A stretch of 20,204 bases of DNA from a virus. The stretch is from IMG/VR virus record IMGVR_UViG_3300017782_004265, positions 1 through 20,204 of that record; one strand, written 5' to 3'. Of this stretch, positions 11,992 to 16,711 are shown in pieces. Position 1 is the stretch's first letter; each line of letters starts with the position of its first letter. Below the pieces are notes generated by a model that saw nothing but the letters and a program-made list of their open reading frames with translations, had not been told where the DNA came from and searched no databases. Made by a program: the position numbers and the translations under genes.

Positions 11992-12225
11992 ATGAGTAGA
12001 ATCACCACAAAACAAGTCCATGATGAACTTAAAACGTTTATTGATCACAACTGTAAAGAACACAAACAACTTCATGCTCGTGTAACAGAACTTGGCAAAG
12101 CAGTAAAAGAAAACAGAACATTTTTCACTGACAGATTAGACAGACTGGATAACAGAATATGGATGATAATGGCACTTACGTTTACCACATTTGTAACATT
12201 ATTCGCAAGTCTAATGTTCACATAA
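11992..12225 (+). CDS. Coiled-coil plus C-terminal membrane anchor, XhlA/holin-like
   Basis: I take ATG 11992 as the start (77 residues) rather than a TTG four codons earlier. The protein begins with a polar helical part (MSRITTKQVHDELKTFIDHN) and a heptad-like coiled coil (LHARVTELGKAV, then FFTDRLDRLDNRI). It ends in one hydrophobic segment, IWMIMALTFTTFVTLFASLMF, at about 55-76. Small phage proteins with this topology include the XhlA-type haemolysin/holin accessory proteins that sit in the inner membrane and assist host lysis. No endolysin is visible nearby, so a lysis role is inferred from topology alone; a virion-associated membrane protein is the alternative. It is the last gene of the rightward virion block. 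Confidence 0.7.
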   Translation: MSRITTKQVHDELKTFIDHNCKEHKQLHARVTELGKAVKENRTFFTDRLDRLDNRIWMIMALTFTTFVTLFASLMFT

Positions 12226-12236
12226 ATCCGCAAAAA

Positions 12237-12255
12237 ACACAAAAACAGATAAATA
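12237..12255 (+). promoter_or_regulatory. Late-type promoter of candidate RNA 1
   Basis: ACACAA at 12237-12242, five bases, then GATAAATA at 12248-12255. GTAAC follows six bases later (12262), a conserved start-site-like sequence also found after the copies at 16502 and 20083. The first predicted stem of the downstream RNA begins exactly there. Confidence 0.6.
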
Positions 12256-12261
12256 TATAAT

Positions 12262-12460
12262 GTAACTGGTATAGTATGTTTTATCGAGCATACTTCACTA
12301 ACAACTGACGATTGGTCTCCGACGATGAAAGAGAACCAGTTACAGCACATAAAGGAACTGACCAAAGTTCAAATAATGTGCCATTTTATTTACATGACAC
12401 TTTAAGTGGCATAGTAGATTTTCCTAAAAAAAGTGAAAAGCACACTTCGGTGTGTTTTTT
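12262..12460 (+). ncRNA. Candidate structured RNA 1 (about 199 nt) with intrinsic terminator
   Basis: No convincing ORF lies here, yet paired segments are dense. P1 pairs GTAACTGGT (12262-12270) with ACCAGTTAC (12335-12343). Inside it P2 pairs AGTATG (12273-12278) with CATACT (12289-12294), and a short TCTC/GAGA helix (12316-12319, 12331-12334) abuts P1. Next to P1, P4 pairs GCACAT (12345-12350) with ATGTGC (12376-12381) and encloses GAACT/AGTTC (12355-12359, 12366-12370). A CACT/AGTG hairpin (12398-12408) follows, then the UUCG terminator. A promoter six bases before P1 and a terminator at the end make a self-contained transcription unit. No known RNA family is recognised. Pairings were found by eye and no folding energy was computed. 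Confidence 0.6.
12436..12460 (+). terminator. Rho-independent terminator with cUUCGg loop
   Basis: AAAAGCACAC (12436-12445), loop TTCG, then GTGTG and six T (12450-12460). The C(UUCG)G tetraloop is exceptionally stable, and the A run can pair with the T run. It ends candidate RNA 1 and would also stop read-through from the virion genes. Confidence 0.88.
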
Positions 12461-12471
12461 GCTGACTGCCC

Positions 12472-12498
12472 ATTATAAAGTGATAAATCACTTATAAT
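12472..12498. repeat. Inverted repeat upstream of the second RNA promoter
   Basis: ATTATAAAGTGAT (12472-12484) and ATCACTTATAAT (12487-12498) are complementary over 12 bp with one bulged A and a two-base centre. The element lies between the terminator of RNA 1 and the next ATAAATA. It could be a protein-binding palindrome acting on that promoter, or the end of an RNA. Confidence 0.5.
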
Positions 12499-12499
12499 A

Positions 12500-12507
12500 G
12501 ATAAATA
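12500..12507 (+). promoter_or_regulatory. Late-type promoter of candidate RNA 2
   Basis: GATAAATA (12500-12507) is followed six bases later by GTAGC (12514), a variant of the GTAAC start-site sequence. The ACACAA upstream box is absent; the 12472-12498 palindrome occupies that place. Confidence 0.5.
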
Positions 12508-12513
12508 CTTACT

Positions 12514-12708
12514 GTAGCAAAACTCATTCCACTAAGTTATGCCTAATCACATACTTGGATCATAATGATAAAGTTGCCAAACGAGAATCCACTAATCAAC
12601 CGGTTATAGATTCGTTCATAAAGTTTTGCTACACCCCTTTGCTGTTGGTAGAAGATCCTAATACTTAGTATTAACATCATAATGTAGCCATTAACTGCTA
12701 ACAGCAAA
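12514..12708 (+). ncRNA. Candidate structured RNA 2, two multibranched domains
   Basis: Domain 1 is closed by a perfect 12-bp helix, TGTAGCAAAACT (12513-12524) with AGTTTTGCTACA (12622-12633). Inside are AAGTTATG/CATACTT (12534-12541, 12550-12556, one bulge) and a long arm AACGA-GA-ATC/GATTCGTT (12580-12589, 12609-12616), tipped by TAATC-AACC-GGTTA. Domain 2 is closed by a 14-bp helix with two G-U pairs, TTTGCTGTTGGTAG (12638-12651) with CTGCTAACAGCAAA (12695-12708). It encloses TAATAC-TTA-GTATTA (12659-12673) and ACAT-CATA-ATGT (12674-12685). The closing helix of domain 1 begins at the predicted transcription start. No plus-strand terminator is evident after 12708, so the 3' end is uncertain. 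It is not a tRNA or a family I recognise. Confidence 0.58.
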
Positions 12709-12717
12709 CTTTACCCA

Positions 12718-12742
12718 TAAAAAAAGGCGCCTTGCGACGCCT
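12718..12742 (-). terminator. Terminator of the leftward gene 12761-13243
   Basis: Read on the minus strand, AGGCG, a loop of about eight bases and CGCCT are followed by a run of seven T. It lies 18 bases after the gene's stop. On the plus strand there is no T run, so it is directional. Confidence 0.8.
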
Positions 12743-12760
12743 AACGCAGAGAGGTTACGT

Positions 12761-13243
12761 TTATTCAAATACTGTTTTTAGTGGAACTAATGTTAAAGGA
12801 TAATCTTTATAACATGGTGTTATAAGTTGACCCTCTTTAGCCATACCAAATGCTACAGCATTTTTATACATAGTAGATTCTAACCATTCATCTACTTTTT
12901 TCCATTTAGCAGTAGTATCACTTTCTCCGGCGTCTTCTTCAAGTGTAAAATATTCCTTAGCCTGTTCATCAGTTACAGGTATATACTCATATACACTACT
13001 ACTTAGATTATCAAACTCATATATGTCAAACTCACATACGTCTGCCTCTTCAGTTAAAGGTATAATACCTTTATTGATATTATTATCTTTACATAACTGA
13101 TCAATATCGATCATAGGTTCTGTTGAAAAACCTCTTTCACTCCATTCCTCAGCAGTTAGATTTTGAGTCTCATTACTCGTAGAAACAAGAATCTCCTTTC
13201 CATTGATTTTTGAGACTTTACTGTCGTTTTCAAATGTTGCCAT
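12761..13243 (-). CDS. Unknown acidic protein, early-type cassette
   Basis: I place the start at ATG 13243 (160 residues, MATFENDSKV...), behind AAAGGA. An in-frame ATG at 13285 would coincide with the predicted transcript start and lie inside a conserved leader hairpin, so it is disfavoured. The protein is strongly acidic with many Glu/Asp (TAEEWSERG, EFDIYEFDN, YFTLEEDAGESDTTAKWKKV). It has no membrane segment and no known motif. It seems distantly related to the gene at 15958-16395: both begin MAT, have a short FEN/FDN strand, contain (E)Y-x-IP-(V/L)T-(D/K)EQ-x-x-EY, and end with a Trp/Lys-containing helix. It has its own sigma70-type promoter and terminator and is inverted within rightward late genes, a moron-like layout. 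Function unknown. Confidence 0.8.
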   Translation of the reverse strand: MATFENDSKVSKINGKEILVSTSNETQNLTAEEWSERGFSTEPMIDIDQLCKDNNINKGIIPLTEEADVCEFDIYEFDNLSSSVYEYIPVTDEQAKEYFTLEEDAGESDTTAKWKKVDEWLESTMYKNAVAFGMAKEGQLITPCYKDYPLTLVPLKTVFE

Positions 13244-13260
13244 TTTATTTTCCTTTAAAT

Positions 13261-13285
13261 ATGTCTTTGCTTTATTGCTAAACAT
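13261..13285 (-). promoter_or_regulatory. 5'-terminal mRNA hairpin, covarying with 16412-16438
   Basis: On the minus strand ATGTTT (13285-13280) pairs with AGACAT (13266-13261), including one T-G pair, around the 13-base loop AGCAATAAAGCAA. The same 13-base loop with a different but still complementary stem occurs before the gene at 15958-16395. The stem begins at the predicted +1. Such 5' hairpins can stabilise mRNA or bind a regulator. Confidence 0.65.
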
Positions 13286-13360: not shown

Positions 13361-13368
13361 TATAAATA
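13361..13368 (+). promoter_or_regulatory. Late-type promoter, exact TATAAATA
   Basis: TATAAATA (13361-13368) equals the T4 late -10 consensus and is followed by an A/T-rich start region. It would transcribe the 39-codon ORF at 13451 and the hairpin-rich stretch beyond. The ACACAA box is missing here. Confidence 0.5.
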
Positions 13369-13450
13369 CTTTTTGATTAAGGCATACATGGCATAACACA
13401 GAACCCTAAAACAAACAGAACATAAGACTTGTCCGTCGGATATAAGGACC

Positions 13451-13570
13451 ATGGCAAAAGTAGTGATTTCGGTAACTACACATGAGAAACAAAACTACAA
13501 GCACACTCCTGCTCAATGTAGTAATGTAAGACATCTTTCTGTTATGTCGCAAACATACGCATACGCATAA
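13451..13570 (+). CDS. Possible 39-residue small protein
   Basis: ATG at 13451 is preceded by AAGGA at only 4 bases and lies 80 bases downstream of an exact TATAAATA. It encodes MAKVVISVTTHEKQNYKHTP and a further 19 residues ending QTYAYA. There is no known domain. The ribosome-binding site could be hidden in a GTCC/GGAC hairpin (13431-13449), which would make translation conditional. Composition is plausible, but the ORF is short and alone, and the segment may instead be part of a long untranslated RNA. Confidence 0.35.
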   Translation: MAKVVISVTTHEKQNYKHTPAQCSNVRHLSVMSQTYAYA

Positions 13571-13573
13571 ACA

Positions 13574-13860
13574 CTTATAATAGTTACACGAGATTATAAG
13601 GCACATTTATAATGTGTTGTTGATGTAGGTTGGAAAAGGTCAAAGTCCATTGCGTAGTATGTATAAAAATAAAATACCTATTGTTTGAACAGGCTGTGAT
13701 ACTCACATAATGAGACAGCAGGAAGACACTTCAATAGTGTTTTCTTGACTGAAATATCTACATAATAAGTTCTAATAAGGTTCGAGAGAACAAACAAACA
13801 AGCAACTACACGAGTGTTAACGAGTGTTTGCTGTTTGTTTTGTGTGAACGTAGTTCGCAC
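13574..13860 (+). other. Hairpin-rich non-coding stretch
   Basis: I see no convincing gene between 13571 and 13938. The stretch holds a series of local helices: CTTATAAT/ATTATAAG (13574-13600), CACAT/ATGTG (13602-13616), and AAGACACT/AGTGTTTT followed by CTT (13723-13745, terminator-like). Further on are GTTC-GAGA-GAAC, a GNRA loop (13780-13791), a long A/C-rich with T/G-rich helix ending in GCAA/TTGC (about 13790-13843), and GTGTGAAC-GTA-GTTCGCAC (13842-13860). It lies downstream of TATAAATA at 13361 and could be a third structured RNA or a long leader of the gene at 13939. Pairings were found by eye. Confidence 0.45.
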
Positions 13861-13938
13861 ATTAATAATAAGTATATGATACCACATAAAACACTATAAT
13901 CCTGCTGTGGAGTGTAAATAGATACTGTAGGAGTAACT

Positions 13939-15473: not shown

Positions 15474-15506
15474 CTCCTTTATTTAAAATATACATATAGT
15501 ATACTA
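15474..15506 (-). repeat. 33-bp direct repeat, copy 1 (promoter -10 to Shine-Dalgarno)
   Basis: The 33 bases 15474-15506 are identical to 15847-15879. The repeat covers the -10 box, the transcription start and the AAAGGAG site, so two adjacent genes have the same core leader. This points to duplication of a promoter-leader unit. Confidence 0.9.
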
Positions 15507-15525
15507 TACTTTTAATCTGTGTCAA
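15498..15525 (-). promoter_or_regulatory. Sigma70-type promoter, TTGACA-N16-TATACT
   Basis: -35 TTGACA at 15525-15520 and -10 TATACT at 15503-15498 on the minus strand, with a 16-base spacer. It drives the gene 15239-15466. Most of the region downstream is duplicated at 15847-15879. Confidence 0.85.
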
Positions 15526-15846: not shown

Positions 15847-15879
15847 CTCCTTTATTTAAAATATACATATAGTATACTA
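15847..15879 (-). repeat. 33-bp direct repeat, copy 2
   Basis: Identical to 15474-15506. It holds the -10 box and Shine-Dalgarno of the gene 15528-15836. Confidence 0.9.
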
Positions 15880-15898
15880 CATTTTTTATCTGCGTCAA
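15871..15898 (-). promoter_or_regulatory. Sigma70-type promoter, TTGACG-N16-TATACT
   Basis: -35 TTGACG at 15898-15893 and -10 TATACT at 15876-15871 on the minus strand, spacer 16. The spacer begins CAGATAAAAAA, as does that of the promoter at 16443-16470. Confidence 0.82.
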
Positions 15899-15957: not shown

Positions 15958-16395
15958 TTAAGCAACTTCTATATAGTTGATTTGCTCTTTCATTTCTGCT
16001 AAAGTATATACTCCGCCAAAACGAAACAAATCTTTTGTTATTTTAAGAGTAGGTTCTAATGCTAAAGCATTGTCTTTCATCCATTTTATTTGCTTTTCTA
16101 TAGCAAACTCCTCACTATCGACCATTGCTTGATCTCCAATGCCAGCATTTGGACATACATTCATTACAGCACAATCTTCTATATATTCTGCTGTTTGCTC
16201 TTTAGTTAACGGAATAAAACTATATTCGAATAAATCACGTTGTTCGTCAGTATTATATTCGACTTCTATACAGTATGTATATCCCGCATCTACTAATGCG
16301 TCTATAGTTTTATTTTGATCTATTACTTCATGAGTAACAGTTTTCTTCTCTTTTACGATTTTTAAGACTTCGTTGTCAAAAGTTAATGTCGCCAT
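15958..16395 (-). CDS. Unknown acidic protein, early-type cassette, paralogue of 12761-13243
   Basis: This 145-residue protein starts at ATG 16395 behind AAAGGA. It begins MATLTFDNEVLKIVKEKKTV, has IDALVDAGYTYCIEVEYNTD and FEYSFIPLTKEQTAEYIEDC, and ends with a KQIKWMKDNALALEP helix and a charged tail. The order and several motifs parallel the gene at 12761-13243, and their leaders share a 13-base loop, so they are probably ancient duplicates. Three cysteines and no membrane segment; no known family. It is flanked by a sigma70-type promoter and a strong terminator, i.e. a self-contained leftward cassette within rightward late genes. Confidence 0.8.
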   Translation of the reverse strand: MATLTFDNEVLKIVKEKKTVTHEVIDQNKTIDALVDAGYTYCIEVEYNTDEQRDLFEYSFIPLTKEQTAEYIEDCAVMNVCPNAGIGDQAMVDSEEFAIEKQIKWMKDNALALEPTLKITKDLFRFGGVYTLAEMKEQINYIEVA

Positions 16396-16540: not shown

Positions 16541-16711
16541 ATGAAGATGAACTTCTCGGAAGAAAAAACAAGATATATAAACACAATGAGTCTTACTGGA
16601 CTAAGTCTAATGTGGGGACAGATGTTAGGTATGTTAAATCCATGGTTTACACCTCTAACAGTCTTAACTATTATTATTGGATACGGTAGCGAACTCAATA
16701 AACCTCAGTAG
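16541..16711 (+). CDS. 56-residue membrane protein before the large terminase
   Basis: ATG 16541 lies behind AAGGAG at 9-10 bases, the first gene after a late-type promoter. The peptide has a polar head (MKMNFSEEKTRYINTM), then a hydrophobic part from about 17 to 49 (SLTGLSLMWGQMLGML, NPWF, TPLTVLTIIIGYG). This can be read as two short membrane helices split by NPW or as one long segment, followed by a polar tail. The stop shares a base with the GTG start of the terminase (TAGTG). A two-helix holin or other small membrane protein is possible; no family is recognised. Confidence 0.7.
   Translation: MKMNFSEEKTRYINTMSLTGLSLMWGQMLGMLNPWFTPLTVLTIIIGYGSELNKPQ

Follow-up and report, generated by a model that had tools for sequence, protein, structure and literature searches.

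A predicted structured RNA gene in an uncultured tailed phage and an 18-nt module shared with RNAs and leaders of related phages

Organization of the locus

The window, that is, the whole stretch of DNA analyzed here, is an IMG/VR virus record of 20,204 bases from an uncultured tailed phage; relatives that look complete are about 28–31 kb long. Its terminase, portal, and tail-tip proteins are only distantly related to their counterparts in named phages. The best identity to named phages was about 45% for the terminase (Pelagibacter phage HTVC026P and phage DSL-LC06) and about 27%, over a partial length only, for the portal, where the protein of the relative L008 served as query. Terminase relatives in bacterial genomes could not be confirmed, and neither a tRNA nor a tmRNA was found in the window. 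Related contigs, retrieved by IMG/VR searches with the terminase and neighboring genes, share the same gene order: an ORF of about 126 amino acids, an ORF of about 78 amino acids with a hydrophobic C-terminal end, the octamer GATAAATA, and then RNA1, the first of three predicted structured RNAs in tandem. The gene for TerL, an ordinary large terminase, starts at position 16711, 4.25 kb downstream of RNA1, so that the location "near the terminase genes" given in the first-pass annotation is a loose description.

RNA1 (12262–12460, plus strand, approximately 199 nt) was assigned as a structured noncoding RNA by its fold, covariation, the folds of its homologues, the broken overlapping ORFs, and the absence of an Rfam match. 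Direct reading of the sequence gives ACACAA (12237–12242), five further nucleotides, the promoter octamer GATAAATA (12248–12255, plus strand), which is T4-late-like and for which no −35 element was seen, and, after six bases, the 5′ arm of helix P1. In P1, GUAACUGGU (12262–12270) pairs with ACCAGUUAC (12335–12343) over 9 bp, or 10 bp if U12261–A12344 is counted. This helix (12261–12270/12335–12344), which displays compensatory changes, closes domain 1 (12261–12344, plus strand), and the domain contains a UUUUAUCGAG hairpin as well as the 18-nt module CUGACGAUUGGUCUCCGA (12305–12322, plus strand). P2 with its inner hairpin follows at 12345–12381 (plus strand; GCACAU 12345–12350/AUGUGC 12376–12381, inner hairpin GAAC 12355–12358/GUUC 12367–12370), and P3 occupies 12388–12419 (plus strand; AUUUAC 12388–12393/GUAGAU 12414–12419). 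The intrinsic terminator, a C(UUCG)G hairpin with a U-run (12440–12460, plus strand), consists of GCACAC (12440–12445), UUCG (12446–12449), GUGUGU (12450–12455), and the U-run until 12460. RNA1 is composed of four helical parts and a terminator. The architecture of promoter, helices, and terminator described in the first-pass annotation agreed with the sequence at every position given there; P3, which was absent from its list, is present in addition.

A second copy of GATAAATA (12500–12507, plus strand), found at the homologous position in relatives, precedes RNA2 (12513–12708, plus strand). RNA2 is predicted to fold into a P1 helix (12513–12524/12622–12633) and a second long hairpin (12638–12708), with a fold z-score of −5.64 for 12508–12745 and z-scores from −3.2 to −8.0 in homologues. 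Its P1 was 100% paired in nine types, two of which (L012 and L045) were assigned through their TGTAG...CTACA arms, and five of the ten pairs were changed on both sides. No plus-strand terminator of RNA2 was found in the window. A GC-rich hairpin at 12718–12742 has a T-run on the minus strand only and looks like the terminator of the minus-strand gene at 12761–13285, not that of RNA2. This ORF (12761–13285, minus strand; MATFENDSKVSK...) and a second one (15958–16395, minus strand; MATLTFDNEVLK...) look paralogous by eye and have similar AT-rich upstream regions, near-identical copies of which are also located at about 15476–15510 and 15851–15885.

RNA3 (13420–13870, plus strand), whose core (13565–13768) lies 1.1 kb further on, was recognized by profile matches and covariation; a possible promoter, TATAAATA (13361–13368, plus strand), is predicted from the sequence only. 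RNA3 is noncoding, 74%–93% identical within the subclade, and has a fold z-score of −3.29. Its profile matched in 68 fetched loci, many of which are overlapping stretches of the same contigs, and reached phages with a terminase identity of only about 50%–52%, a wider spread than that of RNA1. Two helices covary (21 sequences; none of 300 re-dealings was as good), while RNAalifold recovered few pairs from the sequence alignments because the arm lengths vary. Of all elements in the window, RNA3 may be the most interesting.

The three conserved RNAs, RNA1–RNA3, are distinct from and dissimilar to one another. None of the three matches Rfam: at the gathering score, release 15 gave no match in the window, in line with the novelty proposed in the first-pass annotation, or in 19 related loci, and relaxation to E ≤ 5 yielded chance-level matches only. 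Several marine and cyanophage motifs that carry Rfam numbers are listed in a survey covering 104 RNA motifs from bacteria and metagenomes (PMC2864571). At the DNA level, neither RNA1/RNA2 nor RNA3 matched a named phage. The stem scan of the Pelagibacter phages HTVC026P and HTVC112P and of the Roseobacter phage CRP-831 detected no such element, and a single weak candidate (z −2.7) was found in the metagenome-assembled phage DSL-LC06.

Conservation of RNA1

The fold of RNA1 (12262–12460) reached −55.5 kcal/mol, compared to −36.3 kcal/mol (SD 3.8) in dinucleotide shuffles (z −5.04), and none of the 200 shuffles was as low; the folding comparison on which the initial proposal had been made dependent therefore came out in its favor. 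As an independent check, homologues were folded singly, and each of the ten sequences had a z-score between −3.6 and −6.8. P1 begins 4–5 nt past the octamer in all ten. Its mean pair probability is 0.96–1.0 in eight homologues and weaker in L010 (0.65) and L090 (0.56). The terminator is more variable, since the U-run is absent in L010 and L153 and the terminator hairpin of L154 is different. The sequence TTGCTGA at the terminator end (12459–12465) is conserved even in the homologues without a U-run (L010 and L153); judged from this conservation, the conserved RNA may extend beyond the terminator in some phages.

Covariation was assessed in seven divergent but related RNA1 types (window, L007, L008, L010, L090, L153, and L154). 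In a hand-built skeleton of helix arms (P1, P2 including the inner hairpin, and P3), an alignment that is biased towards these helices, 15 of 23 pairs had both partners replaced in one or more types, and 98.1% of 160 cells were paired. None of 500 shuffles reached any of these measures, and sliding the partners reduced pairing to 26%–47%. In P2, five of the eight pairs counted were changed on both sides with 100% of the cells paired; in P3, where 97.6% of the cells were paired, all six pairs had both partners replaced in one homologue or another. Compensatory changes, which the first-pass annotation had named as a test, are accordingly present in this skeleton. Several of the substitutions proceed via G–U, which fits the plus strand as the folded RNA. 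RNAalifold applied to a plain MAFFT alignment found no pairs in domains 2–3 because the arm lengths vary.

Two ORFs overlap RNA1, a TTG-start ORF of 61 amino acids (12312–12497, plus strand) and an antisense ORF of 97 amino acids (12072–12365, minus strand). Protein coding was rejected for both, which are broken by stops and frameshifts in homologues. The earlier remark that no ORF fits is thus inaccurate as to the presence of ORFs and correct in that neither is conserved; a conserved spanning ORF, which would have spoken against an RNA gene, was not found.

RNA1 of the window and of L006 are 94.5% identical, whereas the terminases share a lower identity of 82%. RNA1 was found only in the subclade of the window, and most of the TerL relatives, of which hundreds exist, do not have it. 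A pattern search for further copies retrieved L191 as the sole new one beyond the known relatives. The remaining new matches were rejected as RNA1 copies; they have no promoter and resemble coding sequence.

Promoter octamer, closing stems, and the 18-nt module

Of the 75 GATAAATA sites in 11 related sequences, 60 fall between genes, yet the intergenic share of each sequence is only 8%–21%; permuted octamers were intergenic in 4.8 of 27 cases on average. The consensus is GATAAATA-(A/T)4-TG. To judge from this distribution, GATAAATA looks like a promoter in the clade. The late expression of RNA1 suggested earlier is a fair expectation because the same octamer also precedes the portal, terminase, and other operons. 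No gp55-like sigma factor was detected among the proteins scanned, the virus record covering only 20.2 kb.

Closing stems with a score of at least 22, a cut-off chosen by the analyst, follow 19.2% of 281 GATAAATA sites. For 25 permuted octamers, which have 2728 sites in these contigs and are a stricter control than random positions, the share is 1.1%. The elements stem from related phages, so that the counts are not fully independent. Among the 60 non-redundant stem elements, 16 have an intrinsic terminator in the 300 nt that follow, compared to 1.3% of random positions, and in about nine the start codon of a longer ORF, often a terminase, is located 13–26 nt past the stem. The motif UUGCCA occurs in 25 of the 60 (2.95 expected), frequently as a hairpin loop. 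Upstream of the TerL genes at L104:11184, L106:7135, L115:10870, L116:10860, and L101:5194, GATAAATA and a long closed-stem leader were observed, and these leaders end 13–23 nt before the start codon where measured.

The module CUGACGAUUGGUCUCCGA is letter-identical in nine RNAs. The closing helices around it differ widely in sequence; in the seven counted, 96% of the positions were paired and six of eight pairs were changed on both sides. Shortly upstream of a 17-mer of the module, ATAAATA is present in 15 of 17 IMG/VR stretches; the two exceptions, L204 and L208, have no ATAAATA near the 17-mer and resemble coding sequence. A search of 84,980 genomes of bacteria and archaea with the 19-mer gave no match. 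The carriers comprise apparently free short RNAs (L201, L206, and L210) and leaders (L119, L129, and L136), both kinds under the same predicted promoter and the leaders positioned a short distance 5′ of a start codon. The module is thus shared with leaders of other phages, and no module-bearing leader was found within the window. RNA1 contains the module in the window, L006, and L090, whereas the RNA1 frame of L007, L008, L010, L153, and L154 is devoid of it. Since it is missing from some homologues, the module cannot be the sole conserved function of RNA1. A limited literature search did not reveal a prior description of such modular reuse, with one module in varying stems.

The short RNAs with CUGACGAUUGGUCUCCGA under an ATAAATA box are about 65 nt long (L201:3649–3715, plus strand; L206:1483–1550, minus strand; L210:1356–1420, plus strand). 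In L201, a second GATAAATA is located directly after the module RNA and before a putative portal gene. A second shared module, GCGGCCAGATAGACATTGTGGTTG, was observed in leaders after ATAAATA (L008:1408–1490, L125:2879–2960, and L139:10492–10570). A similar gene (MAQEKLYTIEEYL...) is preceded in L139 and L129 by two different leader types.

Possible function and comparison with known systems

Conservation of the structure, noncoding nature, synteny, and the recurrence of the module in closed-stem RNAs under the same predicted promoter were demonstrated by comparison of the related sequences. RNA1 is very probably a genuine noncoding RNA gene of the phage, and the first-pass annotation's proposal of a compact gene that has a promoter of its own, begins with a helix at the presumed +1, and ends in a terminator is supported. 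Judging from the anatomy, transcription would start from GATAAATA at or beside 12262; this position is suggested because the T4 late box precedes the start by about one turn (PMC2988020). The 5′ end would enter P1 at once, three further helical parts would form, and the UUCG terminator would end the transcript near 12460. A motif that stays invariant inside a stem of freely varying sequence points to a recognition site, and CUGACGAUUGGUCUCCGA might be recognized by a phage or host protein or by another RNA. RNA1 would then be a late, nuclease-resistant carrier of this site in trans and could titrate a factor that also binds the module-bearing leaders in the manner of CsrB and CsrA. That RNA1 acts in trans by presenting the shared module to a protein is a tentative proposal. 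For the reading as a whole, an RNA gene together with a trans-acting, module-presenting mechanism, we estimate a probability of roughly 0.4. An extension to the entire clade is more speculative: free RNAs and leaders that share CUGACGAUUGGUCUCCGA and UGCC-loop hairpins in interchangeable closing stems might form an RNA-based late regulon, with one factor reading both, RNA1 as its sponge or carrier, and RNA2 and RNA3 as further parts.

RNA1 could instead be a trans-acting antisense RNA, in which the C-rich or UGCC loops of RNA1 and RNA2 pair with Shine–Dalgarno sequences or GGCAAC in phage or host leaders. NCUCC and UUGCC are abundant in the RNAs, and short leaders after GATAAATA are enriched in AGGAGA (46 compared to 15.9 expected) and GGCAAC (26 compared to 11.6). 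However, AGGAGA is simply the ribosome-binding site, the module is partly paired by prediction, and, compared with 29 translation starts of the phage itself, neither RNA1 nor RNA2 paired in clear excess once the antisense ORF of RNA1 was left out, which makes this mode of action rather unlikely. The single match of −93.5 kcal/mol in this search was discarded, as it corresponds to the spurious ORF antisense to RNA1 itself.

The element begins at what is presumed to be +1 of a phage promoter, and similar stems lie directly before the terminase and other genes of relatives; these positions would also suit a cis element of the HK022 put type, whose nascent RNA modifies the RNA polymerase past the promoter so that downstream terminators are ignored. 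The terminator of RNA1 itself and those following 16 of the 60 stem elements fit a free RNA better, and in the complete-looking relative G002, the portal, TerS-like, and minus-strand promoters have no stem; we consider such an antitermination role improbable. Much the same holds for a mere stability device, in which the +1 helix protects transcripts from 5′-end-dependent decay. The constant spacing of 4–5 nt between octamer and P1 and the freedom of the P1 sequence to vary as long as pairing holds are compatible with it, but it would leave unexplained why the 18-nt module recurs verbatim, why P2 and P3 are conserved, and why there are free RNAs with terminators, and we regard it as quite improbable. 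Hairpins form readily in AT-rich intergenic DNA, yet the z-scores, the compensatory changes with G–U intermediates, the synteny, and the promoter context contradict chance hairpins or a DNA site, so that the absence of any RNA gene is hardly credible. Least credible is the packaging role that had been allowed for at the outset, i.e., a DNA-packaging RNA comparable to phi29 pRNA: RNA1 does lie in the late region, a few kilobases ahead of the terminase, but the distance to an ordinary TerL and the detection of RNA1 in only one subclade among hundreds of TerL relatives lend it no support; RNA3, likewise unsupported in this role, would be the wider-spread candidate.

For the preferred reading, in which RNA1 presents the module in trans, the module, invariant while its stems vary, offers a ready bait for a partner, and the function can be tested without a cultured phage. 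Few phage-encoded structured RNAs are known, mostly without an assigned function. Here, a small phage reserves more than 800 bases for three conserved RNAs that do not resemble one another and are missing from Rfam, and its clade repeats a single design of promoter, closing stem at about +1, and conserved loop module.

In sponge RNAs of the CsrB/CsrC type, a motif common to the free RNA and to mRNA leaders allows the titration of one protein, CsrA in the case of CsrB. The system proposed here differs in motif and partner, and RNA1 holds a single copy of the module. A small, phage-encoded structured RNA of a tailed phage is also known in phi29 pRNA; in contrast, RNA1 has no Rfam match, and an ordinary terminase is present in the window. 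The HK022 put RNA, about 70 nt with two stem-loops close after a phage promoter (PMC9378689), resembles RNA1 as a structured RNA directly after such a promoter, whereas RNA1 has approximately 199 nt, four helical parts, and its own terminator. T4 late promoters lack a −35 element and have a TATA-type box of 8 bp that lies roughly one helical turn before the start (PMC2988020). GATAAATA is likewise an 8-bp TATA-type box for which no −35 element was seen, but has a G in the first place. GOLLD and ROOL are structured RNAs of phages and prophages with unknown function, for which Rfam profiles exist, and GOLLD rises during lysis (PMC12286853). RNA1 shares with them the phage origin and a noncoding structure conserved by covariation. 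They are far larger (many GOLLD RNAs exceed 800 nt, compared to about 200 nt in RNA1) and often located near tRNA islands, whereas RNA1 does not match the Rfam models and the window contains no tRNA. RNA1 combines its own predicted promoter, its own terminator, and the lack of a conserved ORF, as is characteristic of a free-standing phage sRNA gene, and RNA1–RNA3 are new families within the known category of phage-encoded structured RNAs.
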